From the NCBI RefSeq assembly GCF_037890675.1, contig NZ_CP149574.1, positions 4,750,874-4,814,873 of the forward strand: 64,000 bases of DNA. Reading direction: 5' to 3'. The position numbers and the translations under genes are program-made. Below the pieces are notes generated by a model. The model had not been told where the DNA came from and did not search any database. It saw only the letters and a list, made by a program, of their open reading frames with translations. Numbering within the stretch: position 1 is the first letter of the stretch; the number at the start of each line of letters is the position of its first letter. This DNA comes from Methylovirgula sp. 4M-Z18 (GTDB taxonomy: Bacteria > Pseudomonadota > Alphaproteobacteria > Rhizobiales > Beijerinckiaceae). Shown one piece after another: positions 5,829 through 64,000 of the stretch.

Positions 5829-5873
5829 TTGACAGCCTCGCGCTTTCGTGCGGAAATCTGACCAAATGGTCAG
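5829..5873 (+). promoter_or_regulatory. preT promoter with RutR-type operator
   Basis: CTGACCA-AA-TGGTCAG (5858-5873) is a 16-bp palindrome whose core TGACCANNTGGTCA equals the known RutR consensus TTGACCANNTGGTCAA except for the outer pair. A TTGACA hexamer at 5829-5834 would place the -10 region against the operator, so binding would block RNA polymerase. The same element, a perfect consensus match, lies at 9392-9407. Confidence 0.8.
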
Positions 5874-5915
5874 GATTTACCGAAAATCCGCATTTGCTGT
5901 CAGGGAGAGGCAGGC

Positions 5916-7277
5916 ATGGACGAGGGGAAAGGGGACCTGGCCTACGCGCCGGGTATTGTGGCCGGTCGTTTATCGGCGGAGGATTATGCGGCGAATTTTA
6001 CCGATCTGCATCCGCCGCTGACCTTGCATGAGGCGCGGGTCGAGGCGGAGCGGTGCTATTTTTGCTACGACGCGCCGTGTCAGGCCGCCTGTCCGACCTC
6101 GATCGACATTCCGTTATTCATCCGCGAGATCGCCGCCGGCAACGAGATCGGCGCGGCGGAGACGATTTTGTCGTCCAACATCTTAGGGGGCATGTGCGCC
6201 CGCGTCTGCCCGACCGAAACCTTGTGCGAAGAGGCCTGCGTGCGCGAGGCGGCCGAAGGCAAGCCGGTGCAGATCGGCCTGCTGCAGCGGCGCGCCACCG
6301 ATGCGCTCCTAAGCGCCGGCCGCCAGCCGTTCAAGCAAGGACCCTCGACCGGCAAGCGCGTTGCGGTGGTCGGCGCCGGTCCGGCCGGCCTCGCCTGCGC
6401 CCACAAGCTCGCCGAACTTGGCCACGCCGTGACGCTCTTTGACGCGCGCGATAAGCTCGGCGGTCTCAACGAATTCGGTCTTGCCGCCTACAAGACGACG
6501 AATAATTTCGCCCAGCGCGAGATCGATTTCGTGCTCGGCATCGGCGGCATCGAGGTGAAGGCCGGGCACCGGCTCGGCCAGGACATGGATCTCGCCTCGC
6601 TGCGGCACGGGTTCGATGCGGTGTTTCTTGGCGTCGGCCTCGGCGGCACCAACAAGCTCGGCCTCGAGGACGAGGCCAATTTGAGCGGCACGGGCGACGC
6701 GGTCGATTACATCGCGCAATTGCGGCAGGCTGCCAGCCTTGGTGATCTGCCCGTCGGCCGCCGGGTCGTTGTGATCGGCGGCGGCATGACCGCGGTTGAC
6801 ATTGCCGTGCAATCGAAGCGCCTTGGCGCCGATGAGGTGACGATCGTCTACCGCCGCGGCCCGGAGCAGATGAAGGCGAGCGGCTACGAGCAGGAACTTG
6901 CGCTCGGCGACGGCGTCGTCATTCGCCATTGGCTGGCGCCGCAGGCACTCATCGGCGTGAACGGTAATGTGGAGGGCATGCGTTTCGAGCGCATGCAGGA
7001 CGAAGACGGCCAGCTCAAGGGCAGCGGCGAAACGATCTCGCTCGCGGCCGATGTCGTGTTCAGCGCCATCGGGCAGGTCCTGACCTTCGCGGAAGACGGG
7101 TTGACGACCAAGGCCGGCCGCATCGTGGTCGATGCCGAGCGGCGCACGTCGCTGCCAGATGTCTGGGCCGGTGGCGACTGCATCTTCGGCGGCCAGGACC
7201 TGACCGTTTCGGCGGTGGAGGACGGCAAACAGGCCGCCCTCTCGATCGATCGCGCGCTGCGCGGAACTCAAGCGTGA
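5916..7277 (+). CDS. preT: NAD-dependent dihydropyrimidine dehydrogenase subunit PreT
   Basis: This 453-residue electron-input subunit takes electrons from NADH via FAD and Fe-S clusters to PreA, for reduction of uracil and thymine to dihydro forms. The N-terminal ferredoxin-like domain has cysteines 47, 50, 55, 59 and 94, 98, 104, 108, enough for two 4Fe-4S clusters. An FAD Rossmann motif (VVGAGPAGLACA) lies near residue 150 and an NADH one (VVVIGGGMTAVDIA) near 286. The architecture corresponds to the N-terminal half of mammalian DPD. preA follows within a few bases. The operator upstream places it under RutR-type control. Confidence 0.95.
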   Translation: MDEGKGDLAYAPGIVAGRLSAEDYAANFTDLHPPLTLHEARVEAERCYFCYDAPCQAACPTSIDIPLFIREIAAGNEIGAAETILSSNILGGMCARVCPTETLCEEACVREAAEGKPVQIGLLQRRATDALLSAGRQPFKQGPSTGKRVAVVGAGPAGLACAHKLAELGHAVTLFDARDKLGGLNEFGLAAYKTTNNFAQREIDFVLGIGGIEVKAGHRLGQDMDLASLRHGFDAVFLGVGLGGTNKLGLEDEANLSGTGDAVDYIAQLRQAASLGDLPVGRRVVVIGGGMTAVDIAVQSKRLGADEVTIVYRRGPEQMKASGYEQELALGDGVVIRHWLAPQALIGVNGNVEGMRFERMQDEDGQLKGSGETISLAADVVFSAIGQVLTFAEDGLTTKAGRIVVDAERRTSLPDVWAGGDCIFGGQDLTVSAVEDGKQAALSIDRALRGTQA

Positions 7278-7288
7278 GGAAAGAGACC

Positions 7289-8596
7289 ATGGCCAATCTT
7301 GCGACCGATTTCCTCGGCATCAAATCACCCAATCCCTTCTGGCTCGCCTCCGCGCCGCCGACCGACAAGGCTTACAATGTCGTGCGGGCCTTCGAGGCCG
7401 GCTGGGGCGGCGTCGTGTGGAAGACGCTTGGCGAAGCAGGTCCGCCGGTCGTCAATGTCAGCGGTCCGCGCTACGGCGCCTGGCATGGGCCCGACCGCCG
7501 GCTGATGGGGCTCAACAATATCGAACTGATCACCGACCGGCCGCTCGAAGTGAACCTGGCCGAAATCGCGCAGGTGAAACGCGACTGGCCCGACCGGGCG
7601 ATGGTCGTCTCGCTGATGGTGCCCTGCGTCGAGCAGGCCTGGAAAGACATTCTCGCCCGCGTCGTCGACACGGGCTGCGATGGCGTGGAGCTCAATTTCG
7701 GCTGCCCCCACGGCATGTCGGAACGCGGCATGGGCTCGGCCGTCGGCCAGGTGCCGGAATATATCGAGATGGTGGCGCGCTGGTGCAAGGAGCATTCGAA
7801 CCTGCCGGTCATCGTAAAGCTGACCCCCAATATCACTGACATCCGCTTTCCCGCGCGCGCGGCCAAACGCGGCGGCGCCGATGCGGTGTCGCTCATCAAC
7901 ACGATCTCCTCGATCATGGGCGTCGACCTCGACATGATGGCGCCGTCGCCGCATGTGGACGGAAAGGGCTCGCACGGCGGCTATTGCGGCCCCGCAGTGA
8001 AGCCGATCGCGCTCAACATGGTGGCGGAAATCGCCCGCGACCCGGAAACGCAAGGCCTGCCGATCTCCGGCATCGGCGGCATCACCACCTGGCGCGACGC
8101 GGCCGAATTCATTGCGCTCGGCGCCGGCACTGTGCAGGTGTGTACCGCCGCGATGACCTATGGTTTCAAGGTCGTGCAGGAAATGATTTCCGGTTTGAAG
8201 AACTGGATGGACGAGAAGGGCTACGCGACCCTCGACGATTTCCGCGGCCGCGCCGCGCCGAAAGTCACGGATTGGCAATATCTCAATCTGAATTATGTGG
8301 TGAAGGCGGCGATCGATCAGGATCTGTGCATCAAATGCGGCCGCTGCCATATCGCCTGCGAAGACACGTCACATCAGGCGATCACCAATATGGTCGATGG
8401 GGTGCGCAAATTCGTGGTCAAGGATGACGAATGCGTCGGCTGCAACCTGTGCGCCACGGTGTGTCCGATCGAGAATTGCATCACTATGGTGCCGCAACAC
8501 CAAGGCATCGACCCGCGCACGGGGCTCGATTACGGCCGGCCGTATGGGAATTGGACGGAGCACCCGAACAACCCCATGGCGAAAGTAATCGCATAG
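7289..8596 (+). CDS. preA: NAD-dependent dihydropyrimidine dehydrogenase subunit PreA
   Basis: This catalytic subunit (435 residues) has an FMN TIM barrel of the dihydroorotate dehydrogenase type, followed by a C-terminal two-cluster ferredoxin domain (CIKCGRCHIAC and CVGCNLCATVCP). It reduces pyrimidine bases in the first step of the reductive pathway. The substrate-loop text NFGCPHGMSERGMGSAVGQ is present; the position equivalent to the mammalian DPD active-site Cys (ACGQ) is Val here. ATG 7289 is preferred over GTG 7274, which would overlap the preT stop, because GAGGAAAG lies 7 nt upstream of the ATG. It is transcribed with preT. Confidence 0.95.
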   Translation: MANLATDFLGIKSPNPFWLASAPPTDKAYNVVRAFEAGWGGVVWKTLGEAGPPVVNVSGPRYGAWHGPDRRLMGLNNIELITDRPLEVNLAEIAQVKRDWPDRAMVVSLMVPCVEQAWKDILARVVDTGCDGVELNFGCPHGMSERGMGSAVGQVPEYIEMVARWCKEHSNLPVIVKLTPNITDIRFPARAAKRGGADAVSLINTISSIMGVDLDMMAPSPHVDGKGSHGGYCGPAVKPIALNMVAEIARDPETQGLPISGIGGITTWRDAAEFIALGAGTVQVCTAAMTYGFKVVQEMISGLKNWMDEKGYATLDDFRGRAAPKVTDWQYLNLNYVVKAAIDQDLCIKCGRCHIACEDTSHQAITNMVDGVRKFVVKDDECVGCNLCATVCPIENCITMVPQHQGIDPRTGLDYGRPYGNWTEHPNNPMAKVIA

Positions 8597-8606
8597 GCTC
8601 CGCGAA

Positions 8607-8636
8607 ACCCTTCTCCCCGCGAGCGGGGAGAAGGGT
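8607..8636. repeat. RIME-like hairpin between convergent preA and rutR
   Basis: ACCCTTCTCCCCG pairs with CGGGGAGAAGGGT around a CGAG loop. It is one module of the CCCTTCTCC repeat family seen at 23.5, 38.4, 47.3 and 48.2 kb. Lying between convergent genes it could act as a bidirectional terminator, though no T-tract is present. Confidence 0.75.
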
Positions 8637-8661
8637 TATCTCACGCCTCTGTTCGCCGCTG

Positions 8662-9312
8662 TCACGCTTTCCCGTCCGGCAGCACACCATTCATGATCGT
8701 CGTGATCACCTGCGCCTTGGCCATCGCGAATTGCTTGTCCGACAACGCCCGGCCGTCATTCAACAATTCGATCTGCACAGAAAAATCGGCGTAATGCTGC
8801 GTTGCGGCCCAGATCATGAAGAACAGATATTTCGGCTCGATCGGGCGCAGCTTGCCCTCGGCGATCCAACCCCGAATGACTACGCTGTGGTGATCGAGCC
8901 AGGGGATCATCGTGTTTTCGATATAGCCTTGAATGAGCGGCGCGCCGCGCATGATTTCGCTGGCGAAGATCTTCGAGCCATAGGGATATTGCCGCGCCAG
9001 GTCCATCTTGGCGCCGATATAGCCGGACAAGGCGGCAACCGGATCGTCGGTTTCGTCGAGCGTCGAGGCGGCGTTCATCCAGATCGCAATCAGCCGCTCC
9101 ATCAGGATGCGATAAAGGTCTTCCTTGGTGGAAAAATAATAGTGCAGATTGGCCTTCGGCACTTTCGCGCGCCGGGCGATCTCGGCCGTCGTCGCGCCCT
9201 TGAACCCCATTTCGGCGAAGACTTGTTCGGCCGCGCTCAGGATCAGCCGCTCGTTCTCCGTGCGGATCGCACCTTTCACGGAGTCGGCCTCTTTTTCCAC
9301 CTTTATGCCCAT
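8662..9312 (-). CDS. rutR: RutR-like TetR regulator of pyrimidine catabolism
   Basis: A 216-residue TetR-family protein with an N-terminal helix-turn-helix (TTAEIARRAKVPKANLHYYFSTKEDLYR, about residues 38-65). The C-terminal half has FMIWAATQHYADF and IRGWIAEGKLRPIEP, matching the uracil/thymine-binding RutR_C domain of E. coli RutR. Uracil normally releases RutR from TTGACCANNTGGTCAA sites, two of which lie nearby. ATG 9312 is chosen; a TTG at 9333 would add seven residues and neither has a strong ribosome site. It sits between preTA (convergent) and the amidase operon (divergent), and should control both. Confidence 0.92.
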   Translation of the reverse strand: MGIKVEKEADSVKGAIRTENERLILSAAEQVFAEMGFKGATTAEIARRAKVPKANLHYYFSTKEDLYRILMERLIAIWMNAASTLDETDDPVAALSGYIGAKMDLARQYPYGSKIFASEIMRGAPLIQGYIENTMIPWLDHHSVVIRGWIAEGKLRPIEPKYLFFMIWAATQHYADFSVQIELLNDGRALSDKQFAMAKAQVITTIMNGVLPDGKA

Positions 9313-9391
9313 GAGCAACTCATCTTTGACCAACGCCTGTGCGCCGCTGCGATTTTATCCGGAAAGCGGCCTGCGACTACTATCTATCGAG

Positions 9392-9407
9392 TTGACCATT
9401 TGGTCAA
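9392..9407. promoter_or_regulatory. RutR operator (perfect consensus)
   Basis: TTGACCATTTGGTCAA is an exact match to the RutR consensus TTGACCANNTGGTCAA. It lies between rutR and the divergent amidase-dihydropyrimidinase-ABC operon, 80 nt from the rutR ATG and 46 nt before the amidase ATG, so it can autoregulate rutR and control the catabolic operon. Confidence 0.88.
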
Positions 9408-9452
9408 AGTCATACTAGCGTTGTGGTATCCGGACAATTCTGGGAGAGAGGG

Positions 9453-10700
9453 ATGGCGGATCTATCGAACGTGCGCATCAATTCGGCGCGGCTGTGGGAT
9501 TCGCTCATGGAAATGGCGAAGATCGGCGGCACGCCCAAGGGCGGGTGCAAGCGACTGACGCTGACCGACCTCGACAAGCAGGGGCGCGAATTGTTCATCT
9601 CCTGGTGCGAGGCGGCCGGCTGCACGGTGGCGGTGGACGAGATGGGCAATCTTTTCGCCCATCGCGCTGGCGGCGACCCGACTCTTGCGCCGGTCGTCAT
9701 GGGGTCGCATCTCGACACCCAGCCGACGGGCGGCAAATTCGACGGCGTGCTCGGTGTGCTCGGCGCCTTGGAGGTAGTGCGCTCGCTCAACGATCTGAAG
9801 ATCAAGACCAAACATCCGATCGAAATCGCCAATTGGACCAATGAAGAGGGCTCGCGTTTTGCGCCCGCAATGGTCTCCAGCGGCGTCTTCGCCGGCGTCT
9901 ACACCAAAGAATATGCCTATGCGCGCGAGGATCAGGACCACAAGACGCTTGGTGACGAATTGGTGCGGATCGGCTTCAAGGGCGACGAACCGGTCGGCCA
10001 GCGGAAGATTCACGCCTTTTTCGAACTGCATATCGAGCAGGGGCCGATCCTCGAAATCGAGAACAAAGACGTCGGCGTCGTCACTCATGGCCAGGGTCAG
10101 CGCTGGTACGAGATCAACCTGACCGGCTTCGAGAGCCATGCCGGCTCCACACCCATGCCGCGGCGCAAGGATGCGCTGCTCGGCGCGGCGCGCATCGTCG
10201 AGCTCGTCAACAAAATCGCCCTCGCCCGGGCGCCGAACGGCGTCGGCACGACCGGCATGCTCAATCCCTATCCCAATTCGCGCAATGTCATTCCGGGCGA
10301 AGTCTTCCTGACCTGCGAGTTCCGCCATCCCGATGACGACACGCTCACGGGCATGGATGCCGACTTGCACGCAGGCGTCGAGAAGATTTGCGCCGAGATC
10401 GGCCTGACCTACGACATCAAGCAGGTCTTCTACTACGCGCCGGTGACTTTCAACGCCGAATGCGTGGCCGCCGTGCGCCGCGCGGCGCAGCATTTCGGCT
10501 ATTCGCATCGCGACATCGTGTCGGGCGCGGGGCATGACGCTTGTTACATCGCGCGCGTCGCGCCGACATCGATGATCTTCACGCCCTGCGTCGACGGCAT
10601 CAGCCACAACGAGGCGGAAGATATCAGCCAGGAATGGGCCGAAATGGGCACCAATGTGCTCATGCATGCGGTGTTGGAGAAGGCGGAGATTGTTGGGTGA
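9453..10700 (+). CDS. N-carbamoyl-beta-alanine amidase (M20-type Zn hydrolase)
   Basis: A 415-residue member of the M20/M28 allantoate amidohydrolase-ureidopropionase family. It has GSHLDTQPTGGKFDG (metal His/Asp), NEEGSRFAPAMVSSGVFAG (Glu pair), HIEQGPILE and a dimerisation domain with HAGSTPMPRRKDAL. In this context it removes the carbamoyl group from N-carbamoyl-beta-alanine, giving beta-alanine, CO2 and ammonia, the third step of the reductive pathway. Homologues act on N-carbamoyl-L-amino acids or allantoate, so the substrate rests on gene context. ATG 9453 follows GGGAGAGAGGG. It leads an operon with dihydropyrimidinase and an ABC importer, directly downstream of a RutR operator. Confidence 0.9.
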   Translation: MADLSNVRINSARLWDSLMEMAKIGGTPKGGCKRLTLTDLDKQGRELFISWCEAAGCTVAVDEMGNLFAHRAGGDPTLAPVVMGSHLDTQPTGGKFDGVLGVLGALEVVRSLNDLKIKTKHPIEIANWTNEEGSRFAPAMVSSGVFAGVYTKEYAYAREDQDHKTLGDELVRIGFKGDEPVGQRKIHAFFELHIEQGPILEIENKDVGVVTHGQGQRWYEINLTGFESHAGSTPMPRRKDALLGAARIVELVNKIALARAPNGVGTTGMLNPYPNSRNVIPGEVFLTCEFRHPDDDTLTGMDADLHAGVEKICAEIGLTYDIKQVFYYAPVTFNAECVAAVRRAAQHFGYSHRDIVSGAGHDACYIARVAPTSMIFTPCVDGISHNEAEDISQEWAEMGTNVLMHAVLEKAEIVG

Positions 10701-10702
10701 TG

Positions 10703-10821
10703 CGCGTCATTGCGAGCGAAGCGAAGCAATCCATCTAGCGACCGGGTGAATGGCCAACCTTTTGCCATTCGGCCAACGTCATGGTGGATTGCTTCGTCGC
10801 TTCGCTCCTCGCAATGACGCG
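10703..10821. repeat. Paired palindromic repeat, CATTGCGAGCGAAGC family, copy 1
   Basis: The left arm (10703-10733) and right arm (10785-10821) are inverted copies of the same sequence, ending CGCGTCATTGCGAG and its complement. The right arm has two 3-nt insertions, and a smaller hairpin (GAATGGC/GCCATTC, 10748-10770) lies between the arms. A second element with the same arms is at 13115-13262. It looks like a non-coding miniature mobile repeat lodged between the amidase and dihydropyrimidinase genes without breaking either. Confidence 0.85.
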
Positions 10822-10845
10822 GTGGAGGAATTGGGAGAGGGGAAC

Positions 10846-12273
10846 ATGTCACGGGTCATCAAAGGCGGCACAATTGTCGCGGCAGACCGCACCTATGCGG
10901 CCGATATTCTCATCGAAGGCGAGAGCATCAAGGCGATCGGCAAGGATCTTGCCGGTGACGAGGTGATCGATGCGACCGGCTGCTACATCATGCCCGGCGG
11001 CATCGATCCGCACACCCATCTGGAGATGCCCTTCATGGGCACGACCTCGGCCGACAATTACGAAAGCGGCACCAAGGCGGCGCTTTCGGGCGGCACGACC
11101 ATGGTGGTCGATTTCTGTATTCCCGGCAACGGCCAGCCGCTGCTCGATGCCTGGGCCGATTGGGACCGCCGCTCGGCCGGCGCCTGCACCGATTATTCCT
11201 ACCACATGTGCATCACCTATTGGTCGGACAAGGTGCGCGCCGACATGGCGGAAGTGGTGAAACGCGGCGTGACCACCTTCAAGCATTTCATGGCCTACAA
11301 GGGCGCGCTGATGGTGAACGACGACGAAATGTTCGCGTCTTTCCTGCGCTGTGCTGAACTCGGCGCGCTGCCGCTCGTCCATGCGGAAAACGGCGACGTG
11401 GTCGCGGCCCTGCAAAAGAGCCTGTTGGGACGCGGCATCACCGGCCCCGAGGGCCATGCCTATTCGCGCCCGCCGGAAGTCGAGGGCGAGGCAGCCAACC
11501 GCGCCATCATGCTTGCCGACACGGCCGGCGTGCCGCTCTATATCGTGCACACGTCGTCGATTCCGGCGCATGAGGCGATCCGCCGCGCGCGGGCTTTAGG
11601 CAAGCGCGTCTATGGCGAACCGCTCATTCAGCATCTCGTGCTCGATGAAAGCGAATATCACCACAAGGATTGGGACCATGCGGCGCGGCGCGTGATGTCG
11701 CCGCCCTTCCGCGATAAGAAGAATCAGGAAGATTTGTGGAACGGCCTGCGCGCGGGCTCGCTGCAAGTGGTCGCGACCGACCATTGCGCCTTCACCACGG
11801 AGCAAAAGCGCTTCGGCCGCGACGATTTCACCAAGATCCCCAACGGCACCGGCGGCCTCGAAGACCGCATGCCGGTGCTGTGGACCCGCGGCGTTGCGAC
11901 TGGCCGGCTGACGATGAACGAATTCGTCGCCGTCACCTCGACCAACATCGCCCGCATCCTGAATCTCTATCCGAAGAAAGGCGCGATCCTCGCCGGGTCC
12001 GACGCCGATCTCGTGATTTGGGATCCCGAGGCCACGAAGACGATTTCAGCCGCGACACAAGTTTCCGTCATCGATTACAACGTCTTTGAAGGCGTGAAAC
12101 TGAAAGGCTTGCCGCGCACCACGATCTCGCGCGGCGAGGTGGTCTACGATGGCGGCAAGCTGCATGTGACTCCGGGCCGCGGCCGCTTCGTCGCGCGCCA
12201 GCCCTTCCCGGCCGATTCCAAGGCGCTGTCGCGCTGGAAAGAAGTGAACGCGGTGCAGAAGGTTGCGCGTTGA
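10846..12273 (+). CDS. hydA: Dihydropyrimidinase
   Basis: A 475-residue cyclic amidohydrolase (D-hydantoinase/dihydropyrimidinase family) that opens dihydrouracil to N-carbamoyl-beta-alanine. The composite amidohydrolase fold is clear: GGIDPHTHLEMPFMG metal ligands, the carboxylated Lys in TTFKHFMAYKGALM, His ligands in LVHAENG and YIVHTSS, and ATDHCAF. The length is typical. ATG 10846 follows GGGAGAGGGG; the frame continues upstream through the repeat and that part is not credible coding. Its stop overlaps the ATPase start by one base, so it is co-transcribed with the importer. Confidence 0.95.
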   Translation: MSRVIKGGTIVAADRTYAADILIEGESIKAIGKDLAGDEVIDATGCYIMPGGIDPHTHLEMPFMGTTSADNYESGTKAALSGGTTMVVDFCIPGNGQPLLDAWADWDRRSAGACTDYSYHMCITYWSDKVRADMAEVVKRGVTTFKHFMAYKGALMVNDDEMFASFLRCAELGALPLVHAENGDVVAALQKSLLGRGITGPEGHAYSRPPEVEGEAANRAIMLADTAGVPLYIVHTSSIPAHEAIRRARALGKRVYGEPLIQHLVLDESEYHHKDWDHAARRVMSPPFRDKKNQEDLWNGLRAGSLQVVATDHCAFTTEQKRFGRDDFTKIPNGTGGLEDRMPVLWTRGVATGRLTMNEFVAVTSTNIARILNLYPKKGAILAGSDADLVIWDPEATKTISAATQVSVIDYNVFEGVKLKGLPRTTISRGEVVYDGGKLHVTPGRGRFVARQPFPADSKALSRWKEVNAVQKVAR

Positions 12274-54435: not shown

Positions 54436-54587
54436 GAGGAATCTCCTACTATCCGCCGGATAATATGTATCTCAATTGAGATACTTGCAACTTCAGAATC
54501 CATGCGGCGGAAATCTTCGCAGTGCGGCGCGATCATCCTGCCGCAAACCATTGATCCTTGACTCCTATTCGCAGATCGCCAATACTA

Positions 54588-54602
54588 GAACAAATAATGA
54601 AC
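54588..54602. promoter_or_regulatory. LexA box of the imuA-imuB-dnaE2 operon
   Basis: GAAC-AAATAAT-GAAC is an exact alphaproteobacterial LexA site (reverse complement GTTC-N7-GTTC), 17 nt before the imuA ATG. These operons are SOS-induced in this class, so the site is very probably functional. Confidence 0.9.
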
Positions 54603-54619
54603 AATCGACGAGGTCACCC

Positions 54620-55468
54620 ATGTCCGCTACGCCGACACGGGAACGGATTTTTGCGCTTCGGCAGGAGATCGAAGCCCTTGAAACCGGGTCCATTCACGGC
54701 TTCTCGGCCGCGCGCCGCCATCTGCAAGGCCAGGTCGGGTTTGCGGCGGCGGAACGGCTGACCCTGGGCCATGCCCAGGCGGACGATCTGCTCGGCGGCC
54801 TCACCGTCGCGGCCATTCACGACGTGCTGCCGGCGGGCGCACCCGATATGGCGGCGGCCTCCGGCTTTGCGCTCGGGCTGATCGCCCGTTTGCGCAGCCA
54901 GGCCCATGCCGCGCGCAAGCCCTGGGCCTGGCTGCGGCAGGACCTTGCCGGGCTGGAGGTGGGTGAGCCTTACGGACCTGGCCTTGCCGCGCTTGGCTTG
55001 TCGCCCAATTGGCTCGTCGCCATCAGCGCGGCGGATGGCCCGATGCTGCTGCGAGTGGCGGAGGAGACTTTGCGCGCCCATGCCTTTTGCGGCGTGTTGA
55101 TGGAGCCCTGGGGCAACCCGAAAGCACTGGATCTGACCGCCAGCCGCCGCCTGGCTCTCGCCGCGCTGGAGAGCGGCTGCATGGGCGTGCTGTTGCGCTC
55201 AGGCGGCCAGGAAATCCCCGGCTCGGTCGCGACCCGTTGGCTGATCCGCGCCCATCCGAGCCACGGGCATTTCGGCCCCGAACGGCCGACCTTCGATGTG
55301 GAATTAACGCGTAACCGCCGCGGCCGCACCGGCCGATGGGCGATGGAGTGGAGTATCGATGAGCAATCCTTCGCACCAAGGCAAACAGCCCCACCGCTTT
55401 CTGGTGGCGTATTTGCCCACCCTGCCGAGCGACCGCCTGGTGCGGCAGGGATCTTGCGCACCGGATGA
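54620..55468 (+). CDS. imuA: ImuA, SOS mutasome accessory protein
   Basis: A 282-residue ImuA-type protein (SulA/RecA-related, without an intact Walker site). Text such as TVAAIHDVLPAGAPDMAAASGFALGLIARLRS and FCGVLMEPWGNPKALDLTASRRLALAALESGCMGVLLR matches the family. It works with ImuB and DnaE2 in DNA-damage mutagenesis. ATG 54620 follows the LexA box. Its 3' end overlaps imuB by 110 nt in another frame, a long but clear overlap. Confidence 0.9.
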   Translation: MSATPTRERIFALRQEIEALETGSIHGFSAARRHLQGQVGFAAAERLTLGHAQADDLLGGLTVAAIHDVLPAGAPDMAAASGFALGLIARLRSQAHAARKPWAWLRQDLAGLEVGEPYGPGLAALGLSPNWLVAISAADGPMLLRVAEETLRAHAFCGVLMEPWGNPKALDLTASRRLALAALESGCMGVLLRSGGQEIPGSVATRWLIRAHPSHGHFGPERPTFDVELTRNRRGRTGRWAMEWSIDEQSFAPRQTAPPLSGGVFAHPAERPPGAAGILRTG

Positions 55469-56933
55469 AGCGCTGGCGCTGATCGCCAAGGACGGCAATG
55501 CCTGGCGCGTCACCCATCTCAATGCGAGAGCCCGTACGCTCGGCCTTAGGGAAGGCTTGAGCCTCACGGATACGCGCGCGCTTTATCCGCAAACCGCAAC
55601 GCCCAAGCTCACCATCCTGGAAGGCAATCGCGAGGCGGATGCCCATGTGCTCGAGCAACTGGCCGATTGGGCCTTGCGTTACACGCCTTTGGTGGCGACC
55701 CATGGTCCCGACACGCTGATCCTCGATATCAGCGGTTGCGCGCATCTGTTCGCCGGCGAGGATGCCTTAGCTGCCGACATGATCGCACGGCTGCAACATC
55801 TGGGCTTTACCGCGCGCGTCAGTATCGCCTCGACGATCGGCGCGGCCTGGGCGCTGAGCCATGACGGGCCAGGCACGATTCTGCCTGCGGGACAGGAACG
55901 CACGGCGCTCGCCCCTCTGCCGCTGGCCGCGTTGCGCCTGCCGGCGGATCTTCTCGCCGCGCTGGAACGGCTCGGCCTGAAACGTATCGGCGAAGTAATG
56001 AGCGGCCCACGCGCGCCTTTGACCGCGCGGTTCGGCACGATCCTGCTGCAGCAATTGGCTCGCGCGCTCGGCAACGAGGACGAGCCGTTCTCGCCGCGCT
56101 TGTCCGTCGCGCCCTATTGGACGAGCCGCAACTTTCCCGACCCGATCGCCCGCGAGGAAGATGTGCGGCTGTGCACGCTGCAGTTGCTGCAATGCTTGCG
56201 CGACCGGCTGGAGCGCCACGGCGAAGGCGCGTTGCGCCTGCGGCTCAGTCTGTTCCGCGCCGATGGCGTGGTGAAACATGTAGAAGCGGGCATGAGCCGC
56301 GCCATGCGTGACGCGCGCGTCATGCAGGACATTCTGTGCCAGCGCCTGGACGCGCTCGCCGACGAAATCGATCCGGGCTTCGGCTTCGATTGCATCGCCG
56401 TCGCCGTTCTCGAAGCGGCACCGGTGACGGAGGAGGCGCTCGCCTTGAGCGCCGCTTACGATCCGCAAAATGTCATCCGCTTCATCGACCGCTTGGGCGC
56501 GCGGATCGGGCGCGCGCGGATCACGCGGCTCATGCCGGTCGAAAGCCATGTGCCGGAATATGCAATGCGCGTTCTTCCGGCCTATGATTCCATCGGCAAA
56601 ATCGATTGGCCGAAGATGCAGGCGGAACCGGGCAGCCCGCCGCAACGGCCGATCCGGCTCTTTGCCCAACCTGAACCCATTGAAACAATGGCCAGCGTGC
56701 CCGATGGCCCGCCCGTGCGCTTCCGCTGGCGACGCATGATGCACGACATCGCGCTGACGGAAGGGCCGGAACGGCTTGCGAGCGAATGGTGGCGCGATTT
56801 GAACGGAAAGCCTCTCACCCGCGATTATTTCCGCGTCGAGGATCGCGAAGGCCGCCGCTTCTGGCTCTACCGCGACGGGCTCTATGACGAAACGCAGCGG
56901 CCGCGCTGGTTCATTCACGGGCTTTTCGCATGA
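55359..56933 (+). CDS. imuB: ImuB, Y-family polymerase-like protein
   Basis: A 524-residue catalytically inactive Y-family polymerase homologue that bridges DnaE2 and the beta clamp. The palm-like N-terminal region (FLVAYLPTLPSDRLVRQ, LILDISGCAHLFAGEDAL) lacks the full acidic catalytic set of Pol IV. The C-terminal region is family-specific (WWRDLNGKPLTRDYFRVEDREGRRFWLYRDGLYDE is the conserved tail, split around residue 490). ATG 55359 overlaps imuA; dnaE2 starts 4 nt before its end. Confidence 0.93.
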   Translation: MSNPSHQGKQPHRFLVAYLPTLPSDRLVRQGSCAPDEALALIAKDGNAWRVTHLNARARTLGLREGLSLTDTRALYPQTATPKLTILEGNREADAHVLEQLADWALRYTPLVATHGPDTLILDISGCAHLFAGEDALAADMIARLQHLGFTARVSIASTIGAAWALSHDGPGTILPAGQERTALAPLPLAALRLPADLLAALERLGLKRIGEVMSGPRAPLTARFGTILLQQLARALGNEDEPFSPRLSVAPYWTSRNFPDPIAREEDVRLCTLQLLQCLRDRLERHGEGALRLRLSLFRADGVVKHVEAGMSRAMRDARVMQDILCQRLDALADEIDPGFGFDCIAVAVLEAAPVTEEALALSAAYDPQNVIRFIDRLGARIGRARITRLMPVESHVPEYAMRVLPAYDSIGKIDWPKMQAEPGSPPQRPIRLFAQPEPIETMASVPDGPPVRFRWRRMMHDIALTEGPERLASEWWRDLNGKPLTRDYFRVEDREGRRFWLYRDGLYDETQRPRWFIHGLFA

Positions 56934-59900
56934 GCTACGCTGAACTTGCAGTGATGACGAATTACTCATTCCTGCGCGGCGCGTCGAAGCCAGGCGAGCT
57001 TGTCGCGCGCGCGAAGGAATTAGGCTATGCCGGCATTGGCATCGCCGACCGCAATTCGCTCGCCGGCATGGTGCGTGCCCATGTGGCGGCCAAAAACTTA
57101 GGGATCAAGCTCGCGGTTGGCGCGCATCTCGTCTTTGCCGACGACACGCCGGAGATGCTTGCCTATCCCACCGACCGCGCCGCCTATGGCCGCTTGACGC
57201 GCCTTTTGACTACCGGAAACCTGCGCACGGGGAAAAAAGGCATCTGCGAACTTACAAAGGCCGATCTTTTCGACTATAGCGAAGGCCTTCTATTCATCGT
57301 TCTGCCACCAGCACGGCTCGATGCGGCCTTTACCGCGCGGATGCAAGCCTTGATTGAAGCATTGCCGCAGCAGATCTGGCTCGGCGCCACCATGCCGCGC
57401 CTCGGCAGCGACCGCCGGCGGCTGCACAATTTGCGAATGTTTGCGAAACGCTTGCACATCAAGCTCATCGCCATCGGCGACGTGCTCTATCACGCGCCGG
57501 AACGTCGTGTCCTGCAGGATGTTCTCACCTGTATTCGCGAACATGTGACAATCGAGGCGGCAGGCTATCGGCTGGAGACCAATGCCGAGCGGCATCTGAA
57601 ACCGCACGCAGAAATCGCACGCCTCTTTCGTGATGATCCGGCAGCAGTTGAAGAGACGACGCGCTTTTTAGCCAAGCTTGATTTCAACCTTGATGAATTG
57701 GGCTACGAATATCCGCATGAGCCTTATGAAGGCTATTCTAGCCCTGGTGAGGCTCTGGCCGACCTTGCTGATAAAGGCGCGCGGAATCGATACGGCGGAA
57801 TTATTCCTGAACACATCAAAAAAGCGCTCGCATATGAATTGGAGATCATCTCACGGCTAAAGTACGAACCTTATTTTCTCACCGTTTACGACATCGTGAA
57901 ATTCGCGCGCAGCGAAGATATTCTCTGCCAAGGACGAGGATCGGCCGCCAATTCCGCCGTCTGCTATTGCTTGGGCATCACCGAAATTTCGCCCGAACGT
58001 GTGAATGGCCTATTGTTCGAACGTTTCGTTTCAGAAAATCGCAATGAGCCACCAGATATTGACGTCGATTTCGAACACGAAAAGCGAGAAAAGGTCATTC
58101 AATACATTTATAAGCGCTATGGTCGCAAGCGTGCCGGCATAGCCGCGACGGTCATTACCTATCGCTCGCGCAGTGCCATTCGCGATGTTGGAAAAGTGTT
58201 CGGCCTTTCGGAAGATGCAATTGGCGCACTGTCGCATTCGACGTGGGGATCGACCTCGCGCGGCATTTCCGATGACGAAGCGCGACGCGTCGGCCTCGAT
58301 CCAGACGATCCGCGCCTTGCCAAAGCTTTGACGCTTGCAAAAGATCTCACTGGCTTTCCACGCCATCTCTCGCAGCACGTCGGCGGTTTCGTGTTGACAC
58401 GTTACCGTCTTGATGAATCTGTGCCGATCGGCAATGCCGCGATGGACGATCGTACGTTCATCGAATGGGACAAAGACGATCTCGATGCGGTTGGCATGAT
58501 GAAGGTCGATGTACTGGCGCTCGGTATGTTGACCGCCATAAAGAAAATGCTCGATTTGCTGAAGCGGCATTATGGCGTGCATAAAACCTTGGCATCCATC
58601 CCCGAAGGGCACGAACGTGTTTACAACATGATCCAAAGGGCCGATACGCTTGGCGTGTTCCAGATCGAAAGCCGTGCGCAAATGTCGATGTTGCCGCGCC
58701 TGAAGCCGGTGAATTTTTACGATCTCGTCATTGAAGTCGCCATCGTTCGACCCGGCCCGATTCAAGGCAATATGGTGCATCCCTATTTGCAGCGGCGACA
58801 AAATCCAAGTTCTGTCGTCTTTCCTAGCCCTTCTCCCGAAGAAGGACCTGCTAATGAACTGGAAGACGTCTTAGGAAAAACCCTTGGCGTACCGCTGTTT
58901 CAGGAACAGGCAATGCGCATCGCCATCGTCGCGGCAAAATTCACGCCCGCCGAAGCCGATCAATTGCGCCGCGCCATGGCCACGTTCCGGCATGCAGGCA
59001 CGATCCACCAATTCGAAAGCAAGTTGATCGAGGGCATGGTGAAGCGCGGCTATGCGCGCGAGTTTGCCGAACGCTGCTTCCGTCAGATCAAGGGCTTCGG
59101 TGAATACGGCTTTCCCGAAAGCCATGCGGCAAGTTTCGCTTTGCTCGTCTATGCCTCCGCCTATCTCAAATGCTATTATCCCGATGTCTTCGCCGCCGGC
59201 CTGCTCAACGCGCAGCCGCTGGGGTTTTATTCGCCGGGGCAGATCGTGCGCGATGCGCGCGAACATGGCATCGAGGTGCGCGCACCCGACATCAATGCGT
59301 CCCATTGGGATGCGACGCTGGAACTCGGTCCGCCGCATCCGCCGCATGAAAAACACGCGAGCATGGTGGGCGATATCAAGACCACCCACGCGCTGCGCCT
59401 CGGCTTCCGCCAGATCAAGGGCTTTTCGCAAGACGATGCGAATTGCATCGCCGACCATCGCGGCGAGGGCTATGATTCCATCCGCGACCTGTGGCTGCGC
59501 ACGCGCTTGCACCCGAGCGTGCTGGAGCGCCTCGCCGACGCGGATGCCTTCACCTCGCTCGGCCTGTCGCGGCGCGATGCGCTCTGGATTGTCCGGGGCC
59601 TCGGCCGCGCCGGCGACAAGGAAGATTTGCCGCTTTTATCCTTCGCGCAACAACAGCCGCTCGAACCCGACATGGCCTTGCCGCCCATGCTGGCCGGCGA
59701 GCACGTGGTGATGGATTATCGGTATTTGCATCTCAGCCTCAAAGCGCATCCGCTCAGCTTCCTGCGCCGCGAGTTGCAGCTTTTACGCATTTCGCCCTGC
59801 GATGATTTGCGTCGCACGGAAGACGACCGACGCGTGAGCGTCGCCGGGCTGGTGACGGTGCGCCAGCGCCCCGGCACGGCGAAAGGCACGATCTTCTTGA

Positions 59901-60253
59901 CCCTCGAGGACGAAACCGGCATCGCCAACATCATCGTCTGGCCGAAAACCTTCGAGATCTTCCGCGCCATCGTGCTCGGCGCGCGCTTCATCCGCGCGAC
60001 CGGCCGCCTACAAAGCGAAAGCGGCGTCACGCACATCGTCGCCGACACGCTAGAGGACATGACCGCGCGCCTGAGCGCCCTGCAGGCCGGCAAAAACGAT
60101 CTGCAGGACCTCGCCCATGCCGACGAGATCAAGCGCGGCACGGGCGACGACCCACGCCAGAAGAACCGCCCGCCGATCGAGCCCGACATCGCCATCGACC
60201 TCGACGTCCCCGCCCGCGCAACCCGCCACGTGCCGGCGCGGATGGCGGGGTGA
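56930..60253 (+). CDS. dnaE2: Error-prone DNA polymerase DnaE2
   Basis: A 1107-residue alpha subunit-like polymerase of the SOS mutasome. The PHP domain opens the protein (SYAELAVMTNYSFLRGASKP); the catalytic Asp set is in NEPPDIDVDFEHEKRE; the HhH and OB domains lie at the C-terminus (VSVAGLVTVRQRPGTAKGTIFLTLEDETG). It performs translesion synthesis with ImuA and ImuB. The middle (about 57.2-58.9 kb) is AT-richer than the ends: 26 of 60 G/C in 57661-57720 but 41 of 60 in 59461-59520. No frame breaks. Confidence 0.97.
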   Translation: MSYAELAVMTNYSFLRGASKPGELVARAKELGYAGIGIADRNSLAGMVRAHVAAKNLGIKLAVGAHLVFADDTPEMLAYPTDRAAYGRLTRLLTTGNLRTGKKGICELTKADLFDYSEGLLFIVLPPARLDAAFTARMQALIEALPQQIWLGATMPRLGSDRRRLHNLRMFAKRLHIKLIAIGDVLYHAPERRVLQDVLTCIREHVTIEAAGYRLETNAERHLKPHAEIARLFRDDPAAVEETTRFLAKLDFNLDELGYEYPHEPYEGYSSPGEALADLADKGARNRYGGIIPEHIKKALAYELEIISRLKYEPYFLTVYDIVKFARSEDILCQGRGSAANSAVCYCLGITEISPERVNGLLFERFVSENRNEPPDIDVDFEHEKREKVIQYIYKRYGRKRAGIAATVITYRSRSAIRDVGKVFGLSEDAIGALSHSTWGSTSRGISDDEARRVGLDPDDPRLAKALTLAKDLTGFPRHLSQHVGGFVLTRYRLDESVPIGNAAMDDRTFIEWDKDDLDAVGMMKVDVLALGMLTAIKKMLDLLKRHYGVHKTLASIPEGHERVYNMIQRADTLGVFQIESRAQMSMLPRLKPVNFYDLVIEVAIVRPGPIQGNMVHPYLQRRQNPSSVVFPSPSPEEGPANELEDVLGKTLGVPLFQEQAMRIAIVAAKFTPAEADQLRRAMATFRHAGTIHQFESKLIEGMVKRGYAREFAERCFRQIKGFGEYGFPESHAASFALLVYASAYLKCYYPDVFAAGLLNAQPLGFYSPGQIVRDAREHGIEVRAPDINASHWDATLELGPPHPPHEKHASMVGDIKTTHALRLGFRQIKGFSQDDANCIADHRGEGYDSIRDLWLRTRLHPSVLERLADADAFTSLGLSRRDALWIVRGLGRAGDKEDLPLLSFAQQQPLEPDMALPPMLAGEHVVMDYRYLHLSLKAHPLSFLRRELQLLRISPCDDLRRTEDDRRVSVAGLVTVRQRPGTAKGTIFLTLEDETGIANIIVWPKTFEIFRAIVLGARFIRATGRLQSESGVTHIVADTLEDMTARLSALQAGKNDLQDLAHADEIKRGTGDDPRQKNRPPIEPDIAIDLDVPARATRHVPARMAG

Positions 60254-60382: not shown

Positions 60383-60543
60383 CTTCCAGCTTGGTGCGCC
60401 TCGTTCGATGTGCTCAATATGCGCCAATGCCGGCCGCCACAAAAATCAATAGGGCCGAGGGAACTCCCCTTGACAGGCGGTGAATTGCGCAAGAAGATCG
60501 TATGTACGCAAACAATAATTCAGGCGCTTCTCGAAAGGCGAAG

Positions 60544-61593
60544 ATGGCCATATCCGCTCGAAGCCGAGCGCGCGGAACGCTTCAGGGATTAGCTATCGGC
60601 GATGCCCTGGGGATGCCGACGCAATATATGCCGCGAACCCTGGTGGCGGAGCGCTACGGCATTCTCGAGACCTTCGAACCCGCGCCCGACGACAACCCAA
60701 TCAGTCGCGGCATGCCGGCCGGCCGGGTCACCGACGATACGGATCAAGCGGTGATCCTAGGCGAGCTTCTGGTCGAAGGAAAAGGATACGTCGATCCGCG
60801 CCGTTTCGCCGACGAACTCCTGGCGTGGGAGACCCGCATGATCGCTGCGGGTTCGGCCGATCTGCTCGGACCGTCCACCCGCAAAGCGCTGACCATGATC
60901 GGACAGGGGATGCCGACCGACGAGACCGGCCGGACCGGCGCCACCAATGGCGCGGCGATGCGGGTCGCACCGGTGGGCATTGTCTTTCCGCCGCACCCGA
61001 TCGAGTCGCTGGTCGACGCCGTATTCCAGTCTGGCCATGTCACACACAACACGACGATCGGCATGGCGGGCGCATCGGCAGTCGCCGCCGCGGTCAGCGC
61101 CGCCATCGATGGAGCGACCGTCGGGGAGGCGCTGGAGGCGGCGATCGAGGGGGCAAGGCACGGCGCCAAGCGTGGTTTCTATTTCGCCGGCGGCGACGTT
61201 GCCGCCCGGATTCGCTGGGCGATTGATCTGGTGCGCGGCAAGGCCGAGGCCGAGGCGCTCGATCTCATCTACGACATCGTTGGAACCGGTGTGGCAACCC
61301 AAGAAGCGGTGCCGGCGGCGATGGCGATCATCTCGCTCGCGCCAAAGGAGCCCTGGCGCATTTGCCGCCTGGCGGCGAGTCTGGGGGGCGACTGCGATAC
61401 GGTCGGCGCCATCGCCGGGGCGATCGCTGGCGCCTGTCATGGTGTCGAAGGCTTTCCTGCGCACGTGATCTCGGCTTTGACTGCCGCCAATCCGGGGCTT
61501 GATCTCGTCGGGCTGGCCGACCGCTTGCTTGATCTGCGCGGTGGGGCCACGAGCCTTGCTCCCGCCGCCCATGCGGGAGCATCCCGGGAATGA
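60544..61593 (+). CDS. ADP-ribosylglycohydrolase family protein
   Basis: A 349-residue DraG/ARH-fold hydrolase that splits an N- or O-glycosidic bond to a ribosyl group. The two-metal site is visible: GLAIGDALGMPTQ, GRVTDDTDQAVIL (Asp-Asp-x-Asp) and LGGDCDTVGAIAGAI. DraG reverses ADP-ribosylation of nitrogenase reductase, but the co-transcribed PfkB kinase and ABC importer point to a catabolic small-molecule substrate. ATG 60544 follows AAAGG; an in-frame ATG at 60502 is an alternative. Its stop overlaps the kinase start in an ATGA. Confidence 0.9.
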   Translation: MAISARSRARGTLQGLAIGDALGMPTQYMPRTLVAERYGILETFEPAPDDNPISRGMPAGRVTDDTDQAVILGELLVEGKGYVDPRRFADELLAWETRMIAAGSADLLGPSTRKALTMIGQGMPTDETGRTGATNGAAMRVAPVGIVFPPHPIESLVDAVFQSGHVTHNTTIGMAGASAVAAAVSAAIDGATVGEALEAAIEGARHGAKRGFYFAGGDVAARIRWAIDLVRGKAEAEALDLIYDIVGTGVATQEAVPAAMAIISLAPKEPWRICRLAASLGGDCDTVGAIAGAIAGACHGVEGFPAHVISALTAANPGLDLVGLADRLLDLRGGATSLAPAAHAGASRE

Positions 61594-62534
61594 ACGCGAA
61601 ACCTCTCCCGACCCGGCTGCTATCGGTGGGAAGCATCCTCGCCGATATTCGCATCGACGTGCCGGGCTTGCCGCCGCGCGGCGGTGATGTGTTGGGCTCG
61701 CAATCGACAATGAGCGCCGGAGGCGGCTTCAACATCCTTGCCGCGGCGGCACGTAACGGGCTCAGGACGGCTTTCGCCGGTCAGCACGGCAACGGCCCTT
61801 ATGGCGCGCGTATCCGCTCCGAATTGCAGTCGGAAGGCATAGACATCCTGATGCCGCCCAGCGAAGCCGGAGACAGCGGCTTTTGCGTCGTGCTGGTCGA
61901 GCCGGACGGCGAACGCACTTTCGTCACCAGCCCTGGTGTCGAAGCCCGCCCGGGCACGATTCCGCTCGCCGACTTGAAGCTTGGTTCGGCGGATGCGCTG
62001 TTCGCGTCGGGTTATGATCTTTGTTATCCCGAACTTGGCCCTGCCATCGCCGGCTGGCTTCCCACTCTGCCGGCGAGTGTGACGGTTATGATTGATCCTG
62101 GCCCGCTGGTCGCCGATATTCCGTCGCATGTGATGGCTGCGGCACTGGCGCGGGCCGATATCGTCAGCTTGAACCGGCGCGAGGCAGCGCTGTTCTCCGG
62201 CGCCGACGATATTGCGGCGGCGGCCAAGCGAATCCGGGATCGTTTGTCGGACGGCGCGCTCGTGATCTTGCGGGATGGGGCGGCGGGATGTCTGTTGCTC
62301 GGCGCGGATATTGCAGAGCCTGGCCTCCAGGTGTCGGCGCCTGCCGTGCATATGGTTGACGCGACTGGGGCGGGGGATGCGCACACCGGCGTGTTCCTGG
62401 CTTCGCTCGCGGCGGGGTTCCCGGTTGCGGAGGCGGCACGGCGTGCCAACGCCGCTGCAGCCATCGCCGTCACACGAAAGGGGCCGGCAACCGCGCCCTG
62501 CGCTGAGGAGCTGAGCGCCTTTCTCGTCACGTGA
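61590..62534 (+). CDS. PfkB-family sugar/nucleoside kinase
   Basis: A 314-residue ribokinase-fold enzyme. The N-terminal Gly-Gly motif is SAGGGFNILAAAARNG and the C-terminal signature VDATGAGDAHTGVFLASLAAG carries the catalytic Asp. The sugar phosphorylated is unknown. It overlaps the glycohydrolase by four bases, so a released pentose or similar sugar is the likely substrate. Confidence 0.92.
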   Translation: MNAKPLPTRLLSVGSILADIRIDVPGLPPRGGDVLGSQSTMSAGGGFNILAAAARNGLRTAFAGQHGNGPYGARIRSELQSEGIDILMPPSEAGDSGFCVVLVEPDGERTFVTSPGVEARPGTIPLADLKLGSADALFASGYDLCYPELGPAIAGWLPTLPASVTVMIDPGPLVADIPSHVMAAALARADIVSLNRREAALFSGADDIAAAAKRIRDRLSDGALVILRDGAAGCLLLGADIAEPGLQVSAPAVHMVDATGAGDAHTGVFLASLAAGFPVAEAARRANAAAAIAVTRKGPATAPCAEELSAFLVT

Positions 62535-62642
62535 AAGCATCACAAGAAGATAGGGTGGGCGCCTTCCGAAAAGCGCAAGCACCCTGCCAATAACAAGAAA
62601 ATCGAGATAACAATGTCACGATCAACGAAGGGAACTGGAAAC

Positions 62643-63710
62643 ATGGTACATACGATCACGCGTCGCCATTTCACAGCCGCTCTGGGAACCGCCGCCGTCG
62701 CGGGCTCGTGGGCGCGTCCCGGCCTTGCTCAGGCCAAGGAAATCACCGTGCTCAATTGGAAAGGGTACGGCACGGACGAACCCTTCACGCTCAAGGGGTT
62801 CGCTGATCTGACCGGCATCACGATCAAGCACGATTACTTCAACTCCGAGCCGGAGATGCTGACGAAGCTGCGCACCAATCCCGGTGCCTACGACGTGGTG
62901 CTGATCAACAGCGCGCGCACGCAGCAAGCCGAGGCGGAAGGCCTGATCGATCCGATCGATTTTGCGACCGTCCCCAATTCCAAGGACCTTGCCCCCGCGC
63001 TCAAGGAGCACGCCAATCTCAAGGCAGATGGCAAGATCTATGGCCTCTCATGGCTGTGGGGTATGAATTCGCTTGCCGTGCGCAAGGGCATCAGCGCCGA
63101 TAGCTGGTCGATTTTCACCGATCCGAAATATGCCGGCAAGCTGGCTTTGTTCGACGATGCCGTGACCTCCGTCGGCATCGGCGCCTTGCTGACCGGGCAG
63201 GATGCCAATAACCCCAAGGATCTTGCCAAAGTCACTGCAGCCCTGAAGGCGATGAAGCCGAACCTCAAATTGATGTGGTCGAGCGAGGACGAGTGGAACA
63301 AGGCCTTTGCGGCCAATTCCTTCGATATTTCCGTCTACTGGTCGGGTGCCGCCGTGCGCTCCATTCGCCAGCACAACTTGCCGGTGGAGTTCATCGTGCC
63401 GAAAGAAGGCGCGATCGGATGGCTCGACAGCCTAGCCGTTCCGACCACCAGCAAGAACAAGGCCGAGGCGCTCAAGTTCCTCAATTACATGATCGACCCG
63501 ACCTTCTACTTCACCTGGGCCAAGGAAGCCGGTGCTCCGGCATCGGCGAACGAGGCCGCAATGGCGAAGCTGCCCGCCGACGATCTCAACCGGCAAATCC
63601 ACAAGGCGGATTACCTGTCGAAGCTCACCTTCATGGCGGCCCTGCCCGATGATCGGCGTCAGGCCTTCAACGATTTGTGGGAAGAGGTGAAGGCCTTCTA
63701 CGCAAAATAA
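62643..63710 (+). CDS. ABC substrate-binding protein, PotD/spermidine-like
   Basis: A 355-residue periplasmic binding protein with a twin-arginine-like signal (TITRRHFTAALGTAAVAGSWARPGLAQA). The mature part is of the extracellular solute-binding family 8/PotD class (ITVLNWKGYGTDEPFTLKGFADLTGI; WSIFTDPKYAGKLALFDDAVTSVGIGALLTGQD). Members bind polyamines, opines and other cations. ATG 62643 is preferred; ATG 62613 would extend it by ten residues. A 17-bp hairpin follows, then the permease gene. Confidence 0.9.
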   Translation: MVHTITRRHFTAALGTAAVAGSWARPGLAQAKEITVLNWKGYGTDEPFTLKGFADLTGITIKHDYFNSEPEMLTKLRTNPGAYDVVLINSARTQQAEAEGLIDPIDFATVPNSKDLAPALKEHANLKADGKIYGLSWLWGMNSLAVRKGISADSWSIFTDPKYAGKLALFDDAVTSVGIGALLTGQDANNPKDLAKVTAALKAMKPNLKLMWSSEDEWNKAFAANSFDISVYWSGAAVRSIRQHNLPVEFIVPKEGAIGWLDSLAVPTTSKNKAEALKFLNYMIDPTFYFTWAKEAGAPASANEAAMAKLPADDLNRQIHKADYLSKLTFMAALPDDRRQAFNDLWEEVKAFYAK

Positions 63711-63736
63711 TCGGCGGGCAAAAAGCAAGCATGGCT

Positions 63737-63775
63737 CCGGCATCATGTCACGCATCTTGCGTGACATGATGCCGG
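63737..63775 (+). other. 17-bp hairpin between binding-protein and permease genes
   Basis: Arms 63737-63753 and 63759-63775 are perfect complements around ATCTT (arm CCGGCATCATGTCACGC). With no T-run it more likely protects the upstream mRNA or weakens read-through, which yields more binding protein than permease, a common design in ABC operons. Confidence 0.7.
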
Positions 63776-63791
63776 CTATGAGGAGGAGCGG

Positions 63792-64000
63792 GTGGCGATC
63801 GTATCGAAGGCCGACGATGGCGCCGCGGCGCCGCGCAAGCGCTGGGGGCAAGGCTGGGCGACGGCCGCCCTGCTGACGCCGGCCTATGCGTGGCTGTTGC
63901 TGGCAGTTTTCCTGCCGCTCTGTGCCATGCTGTTTTTCAGCTTCCTCAAGAGCTCGCCCGTGCCGGGGCGACCGCTGATCTATACGGTCGACAATTATCT
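63792..64000 (+). CDS. ABC permease (PotB-like), 5' part
   Basis: The frame opens at GTG 63792, 2 nt after AGGAGGAGCG, and runs off the window. The visible 69 residues are an Arg-rich cytoplasmic start and a first membrane helix (LLTPAYAWLLLAVFLPLCAMLFFSFLKSS), then TVDNYL, as in PotB-type permeases. It completes the transport part of the glycohydrolase-kinase operon; a second permease and ATPase should lie beyond the edge. Confidence 0.85.
   Translation, partial: MAIVSKADDGAAAPRKRWGQGWATAALLTPAYAWLLLAVFLPLCAMLFFSFLKSSPVPGRPLIYTVDNY

Follow-up and report, generated by a model that had tools for sequence, protein, structure and literature searches.

What is the function of a hydrolase of the DraG/ADP-ribosylhydrolase (ARH) fold that is encoded together with a PfkB-family kinase and a Pot-type ATP-binding cassette (ABC) importer? 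The question is raised by the far end of the window analysed here, a 64,000-nucleotide stretch of the Methylovirgula sp. 4M-Z18 genome (contig NZ_CP149574.1, positions 4,750,874 to 4,814,873 of the forward strand), in which these genes lie in one operon. An initial annotation had proposed that an N-glycoside is imported, hydrolyzed to base plus sugar, and the sugar phosphorylated. Here we add the full operon, the swapping of transporters around the DraG-PfkB pair, the replacement of the pair by a nucleoside hydrolase and a ribokinase, a link to Escherichia coli yegTUV, and evidence that bears on the kinase acting first. The operon is probably a scavenging system for a nucleoside-like riboside, in which the DraG fold would serve catabolism.

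The strongest clue comes from modules in which other enzymes take the place of this pair. The operon also encodes a GH63-like glycosidase, which was found in 15 of 297 genomes searched in the order; four of these (the window's own and three Labrys-type genomes) carry DraG, and the other 11 glycosidase-bearing loci (L183-L193) have no DraG match in the stretch read. A full Pot importer is present in nine of the 11, eight of them with an isochorismatase-family gene in the module, and only the binding protein and the glycosidase are in view in L184 and L186. Five of the DraG-less modules (L183, L189, L190, L191, and L193) contain a nucleoside hydrolase (PF01156, IU_nuc_hydro; 200-301 bits against a cut-off of 34.2 in the four scanned, with the L191 copy above the cut-off too) and a PfkB kinase of the RbsK group. 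The kinases of L189 and L188 pass the cut-off of the ribokinase equivalog TIGR02152 (324.6 and 314.2 vs 299.65 bits), L188 having no nucleoside hydrolase in view. These 11 genomes (about 58.9 Mb) contain 21 listed PF01156 matches; at this background, the chance expectation for the ~188 kb concerned is 0.067 matches, against five observed (Poisson P about 1e-8, or about 8e-7 with two same-genus genomes counted once). These IunH-ribokinase operons occupy the DraG-PfkB slot in an otherwise similar module of Pot importer, isochorismatase-family protein, and glycosidase, and differ in the hydrolase family and in the canonical ribokinase motifs of their kinases. Because the same module elsewhere holds a nucleoside hydrolase and a ribokinase, we read the DraG clade as riboside or phospho-riboside hydrolases. 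No nucleoside hydrolase was found near DraG in the 95 distinct clade loci described below. Nucleoside-type neighbours occur sporadically, namely a purine nucleoside phosphorylase in L060 and, in a sister type, an adenine deaminase preceding PfkB-DraG (L049), a nucleoside hydrolase collinear with PfkB-DraG (L048), and hydrolases of the creatininase family that follow DraG (L050 and L052).

Two of the DraG-less modules have additional genes at their side. In L183 (1185-4603), genes for an allophanate hydrolase (771 bits) and a NAPRTase-like protein, both absent from the other loci searched, adjoin the module of Pot, isochorismatase-family, glycosidase, and nucleoside hydrolase genes; in L190 (14049-16323), the nucleoside hydrolase and kinase genes are closely followed by those for a cysteine-desulfurase-like protein and an arginase (287 bits, above cut-off). 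Several narrower assignments were considered and set aside. Nicotinamide riboside is an attractive substrate, being cationic and amide-bearing and in view of the NAPRTase-like gene, but that gene occurs in L183 only and scores below all cut-offs; the isochorismatase-family proteins match no equivalog above its cut-off and, in the sequences read, lack the His-rich metal motif that we take to mark nicotinamidases. The allophanate hydrolase is genuine, but a biuret/allophanate route would apply to L183 alone.

DraG matches were found in 4 of 149 genomes of the window's family (E <= 1e-20) and in 22 of 397 genomes of the order (E <= 1e-30), the window's own genome included in both, and in 1 of 385 genomes of a class-wide draw, again the window's own. 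A tblastn search with the seven operon proteins recovered the order DraG, PfkB, binding protein, PotB, PotC, PotA in L002, the window locus, and 16 further loci (L008, L009, L033-L045, and L047), among which DraG identity falls to about 42%; the six-gene order goes beyond chance. A single pattern-based scan of 84,980 species genomes gave 543 confirmed places, the best 80 of which were kept; after removal of four duplicates (L056, L057, L066, and L072), the final set comprised 95 distinct clade loci and seven of the sister type. A same-strand PfkB gene lies within 4.5 kb in 91 of the 95; three of the others end 0, 75, and 1,548 bases past DraG (L010, L087, and L115, respectively), and L074 is truly without one. 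The neighbourhood, whose lack of conservation would have counted against the initial annotation, is conserved.

The transporter near the clade DraG is a nucleobase-type NCS1 permease (PF02133 by profile match; no match among PDB sequences at E <= 0.01) in 63 of the 95 loci, a Pot ABC system in 22, neither in 10, and both in none. Additionally, a GntR-type regulator is found near 68 loci (with a UTRA domain in the two examples scanned), an isochorismatase-family hydrolase near 27, and a GH63-like gene near 10, Pot being present in all ten. In a phylum-wide PF03747 survey (249 genomes, 70 with a match, 29 loci examined), the two loci with clade-like scores adjoin PfkB, and the other 27 (scores 86-171) have no PfkB within about 1.5 kb. 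The DraG tree of 68 rows (53 of the 102 distinct clade and sister loci, 14 of the 29 phylum-wide loci, and YegU), built by a 'quick' method with SH-aLRT support only and with the long branches L143, L146, and L149 of unsure placement, requires two changes for the PfkB neighbour (one group, one loss) and, with the E. coli NHS transporter included, at least four for the transporter label; L106 entered it without a label, its NCS1 permease lying at the wider distance used in the 95-locus count. NCS1 and Pot have replaced each other several times around DraG-PfkB.

The surveyed loci also vary in other ways. In L042 (G197, 5415-11476), the Pot importer and kinase are 71-90% identical to those of the window, whereas the DraG (48%) is of the type found in L036; here one DraG subtype has replaced another in place. 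In the sister-type loci L049-L054, a different PfkB gene lies upstream of DraG, with another Pot-type ABC system in L050 and L052-L054. Genes that we take to be aconitase X subunit-like follow PotA in L038-L041 and may form a separate unit.

The window hydrolase resembles DraG, ARH1, and ARH3 in fold and dimetal residues, from which its clade differs in the active-site flap, the adenine contact, and a near-constant PfkB partner. It matches PF03747 (ADP_ribosyl_GH) with 221.2 bits (cut-off 26.2) and scores 99 bits on the DraG equivalog TIGR02662, below its cut-off of 337.05. An AlphaFold2 model (mean pLDDT, the model's confidence score, 94.3; 30 aligned rows) has the ARH fold, and its top VIA-align match is MJ1187 (Z 39.3, root-mean-square deviation 2.4, 301 aligned), with RruDraG at Z 36.6 (2.3, 288 aligned) and ARH3 entries at Z about 34-36. 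Active-site positions were compared in a MAFFT alignment of 99 clade rows (the 95 distinct loci and the four duplicates), all codons given here being on the + strand. The two halves of the dimetal site, Thr77-Asp78-Asp79 (60730..60738) and Asp297-x-Asp299-Thr300 (61390..61401), are kept in 99 and 97 rows, respectively, the latter with a gap in two. The flap position (ARH3 Glu41, RruDraG Glu28) is Gln41 in the window (60622..60624) and Gln in 99/99 rows, so that the ARH3-type glutamate is missing throughout the clade; it is Glu in all four PDB references, YegU, and L049-L054, and Ser in L048. Arg144 (60931..60933), which is R in 78, K in 11, S in 5, and V in 5 of the 99 rows, aligns with RruDraG Glu121 of the adenine-binding ExxA motif, a position that is Glu in both DraG references and the Thermus protein, and the window protein thus lacks the adenine contact of DraG. 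Thr148-Asn149-Gly150 (60943..60951; GNG in DraG) is present in 99/99 rows, partly by selection since TNG belonged to the scan pattern that fetched L056-L135. His182 (61045..61047), also 99/99, is taken as the pyrophosphate-contact His of ARH1/ARH3, and by motif Gly150 and His182 together match the Gly/His pair of those enzymes. Asp120 aligns with the catalytic Asp97 of DraG in the profile alignment but is shifted by MAFFT, which leaves this correspondence ambiguous.

Excerpts of the published accounts give these positions their meaning: the Gly and His touch the pyrophosphate in ARH1 and ARH3 (PMC6309922), the adenine of ADP-ribose is held by Glu121 of the ExxA motif in DraG, and the flap Glu is crucial in ARH3, whereas replacing it matters little in RruDraG (both PMC7050489). 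A pocket that keeps the phosphate site, has lost the adenine contact, and has gained a basic residue would suit a 5-phosphoriboside. In the portions of the sources drawn on here, ARH1 and ARH3 are reported to cleave the N-glycosidic bond of alpha-NAD+ (PMC9738213, PMC8319183), and for such an N-glycoside the activation step required for O-glycosides is described as superfluous, while the flap Glu could come into contact with the amide on the ring (PMC8319183). This activity is, by analogy, a precedent for nucleoside-type cleavage by the same fold.

The kinase (61590..62534, + strand, 314 aa) belongs to PfkB (PF00294; 151.1 bits against a cut-off of 25.8) and scores 102.2 bits on TIGR02152, below the ribokinase cut-off of 299.65. 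In a tree whose long branches make the deeper joins unsure, DraG-linked kinases join YegV in one clade (support 91), separate from RbsK and the kinases that accompany nucleoside hydrolases (support 96). They retain ribokinase Asp16, Asn46, and Asp255 and lack Lys43 and Glu143, which we take to be ribose contacts, the roles of all five residues being assumed here; where ribokinase has Glu143, the window kinase carries Ser140-Gly141-Tyr142 (SGY, codons 62007..62015, + strand; TGY in L114). The two absent residues and the SGY motif argue against free ribose as the plain substrate.

On this evidence, the Pot-type importer would bring in a riboside that is probably cationic or aromatic and may bear an additional glycosyl group for the GH63-like enzyme to remove. 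The PfkB kinase and the DraG-clade hydrolase would then free the base and yield ribose 5-phosphate, and, in relatives, the isochorismatase-family amidohydrolase probably processes the freed base. Release of the base by the DraG-clade enzyme, predicted from genome context and residue comparison, is probable as part of this joint reading. Two orders of reaction are conceivable. In the first, the 5'-OH of the riboside would be phosphorylated before the dimetal site cleaves the 5-phosphoribosyl N-glycoside, much as PsuK and PsuG act in pseudouridine breakdown; there, too, a PfkB-family kinase stands, by annotation, beside a glycosidase of a 5'-phosphoriboside, although PsuG belongs to another glycosidase family and pseudouridine is a C-glycoside. 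In the second, DraG would cleave an unphosphorylated riboside or other pentofuranoside and the kinase would act on the free sugar. The latter order, a variant within the favoured reading and the one that the initial annotation had assumed, is implied by the nucleoside hydrolase-ribokinase pair in five loci, but the window kinase, unlike the replacing kinases (that of L189 exceeds the cut-off), is not of the ribokinase type, and the DraG clade retains the Gly/His that contact pyrophosphate in ARHs. We therefore lean slightly to the kinase acting first, mainly because the kinase lacks ribokinase Lys43 and Glu143 and carries SGY, and regard hydrolysis first as having somewhat less than an even chance.

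The importer itself bears on two alternative explanations. The binding protein (62613..63710, + strand, 365 aa; PotD/PotF class) matches SBP_bac_8 (100.7 bits, cut-off 27) and falls below the PotD equivalog (117.2 vs 582). It shares its binding-protein and ABC family with PotABCD/PotFGHI and differs from them in that the polyamine contacts are partly replaced: among the positions that we assume to contact polyamine in PotD, an alignment with PotD/PotF shows Trp34, Tyr37, Trp229, Trp255, Asp168, and Asp257 (the aromatic box and two Asp) to be retained, and Thr35, Ser83, Tyr85, Glu171, and Gln327 to be changed to Lys, Asn, Ala, Thr, and Met, respectively, Glu171 being retained in some other clade binding proteins. 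The ligand may be cationic or aromatic; a plain polyamine is less likely. An ordinary polyamine importer, encoded next to an unrelated enzyme that removes ADP-ribose from protein, would account for the retained box and aspartates, as well as for this being the sole PotD-class protein found in the genome (E <= 1e-8); with these five positions altered, NCS1 permeases accompanying DraG-PfkB in most clade loci, the flap and adenine-contact glutamates lost, and co-occurrence with nucleoside-type functions conserved, we consider this very unlikely. An amine glycoside of opine-like or Amadori type, or a glycosylated polyamine, would fit the Pot-class importer and the glycosidase, and the glycosidase does accompany Pot in all glycosidase-bearing DraG loci. 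NCS1 and NHS transporters nevertheless serve the same pair elsewhere, and a nucleoside hydrolase takes the place of DraG in Pot/glycosidase modules, which leaves this explanation unlikely; the glycosylated polyamine, one of the ligands first suggested, is not favoured in view of the changed PotD contacts, even with the aromatic box and two Asp retained. The glycosidase matches PF22422 (MGH1-like/GH63; 179.4 bits, cut-off 27); one of its Glu residues aligns with YgjK Glu727, presumably an acid/base residue, and an ESxMDN motif is invariant in 6/6 relatives aligned. For the L056 glycosidase, AlphaFold2 gave a poor model (pLDDT 64.3), whose PDB matches were not used beyond the label 'GH63-like'.

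A further explanation arises from E. coli, in which the DraG-PfkB pair has been published before as yegUV, of unknown function. The window hydrolase shares 37% identity with YegU and the window kinase 35% with YegV, and each groups with its E. coli counterpart in trees; both systems place a DraG-fold gene next to PfkB and a transporter, with a GntR-type regulator in most relatives. Unlike yegTUV, the window operon has a Pot ABC system rather than the nucleoside-symporter-type (NHS) YegT, has no detected GntR of this type, and has an extra GH63-like gene, and YegU retains the flap Glu that the window clade has lost. In the open-access literature, covered by titles and abstract openings and with subscription papers and preprints outside its scope, no catabolic role assigned to the DraG-PfkB pair was found. 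An excerpted study reports YegW (GgaR) to be a repressor of yegTUV that ADP-glucose dissociates from DNA in vitro; according to the same study, glycogen rose upon loss of YegW and fell upon loss of yegV (PMC10819704). Action of the operon on ADP-glucose or free ADP-ribose-type nucleotides would fit these findings, but an importer is present in nearly every version of the module, and the window clade has other residues in place of the adenine-contact Glu. Moreover, ADP-glucose is, to our knowledge, not expected outside cells, and we judge this possibility improbable. A wider proposal, that DraG-PfkB is an unrecognised, widespread bacterial nucleoside-degrading system in which the kinase acts first, possibly on alpha-anomeric or amide-bearing ribosides beyond the reach of ordinary nucleoside hydrolases, with yegTUV as its E. 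coli form, is put forward as a tentative possibility that we consider rather doubtful.

Several points weigh against riboside scavenging itself. Six of the 11 DraG-less modules have no nucleoside hydrolase in the stretch read, which a riboside substrate leaves unexplained, and a kinase without ribokinase Lys43 and Glu143 means that the sugar or substrate need not be ribose. The conserved PotD box and aspartates and the absence of a PotD-class paralog make plain polyamine uptake possible, the work on YegW links yegTUV with ADP-glucose and glycogen, and 80 of the loci stem from one pattern scan as the best of 543 places. Import and catabolism of an N-glycoside by a DraG fold, as initially annotated, nonetheless gains from the conserved context, the swapped nucleobase, nucleoside, and Pot transporters, and the nucleoside hydrolase-ribokinase stand-in, with the substrate class itself inferred; hydrolysis followed by phosphorylation of the free sugar is the less certain part of that annotation.

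The gene arrangement agrees with the operon first described. The hydrolase, kinase, and binding protein are three whole open reading frames on the + strand with Pfam matches above their cut-offs, and the PotB-type permease (63792..64000, + strand, ending at 64694) is truncated by the window end. The hydrolase gene spans 60502..61593 (+ strand, 363 aa); 60544 is an in-frame ATG 14 codons inside it, and either position could be the true start. As annotated, an ATGA at 61590-61593 overlaps the hydrolase stop with the kinase start. In the genomic continuation (locus L002), PotC (64704-65483), PotA (65470-66525), and the MGH1-like/GH63-type glycosidase (753 residues; 66527, the start as taken, to 68788) follow on the + strand, these genes and PotB overlapping or lying less than 100 bases apart. 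Directly upstream lies a mutagenesis cassette (54476-60253), whose genes we presume from their translations to be imuA/imuB/dnaE2-like, with no sign of a functional link; because this cassette is a separate unit, the DraG-like gene is most likely the first of the operon. A promoter search yielded one candidate against 1.3 expected from shuffles, i.e. no excess, and terminators numbered 10 against 6.8 expected (sd 2.5). No yegTUV-type GntR was detected near the operon or elsewhere in the genome at E <= 1e-15, in a search that had no positive control.

The ARH/DraG fold is known almost exclusively for the removal of ADP-ribosylation. If the riboside reading is true, this clade would make it a metabolic enzyme as well, and caution would be due with the label 'ADP-ribosylglycohydrolase' for bacterial members; the same reading makes the function of E. 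coli yegTUV directly testable.

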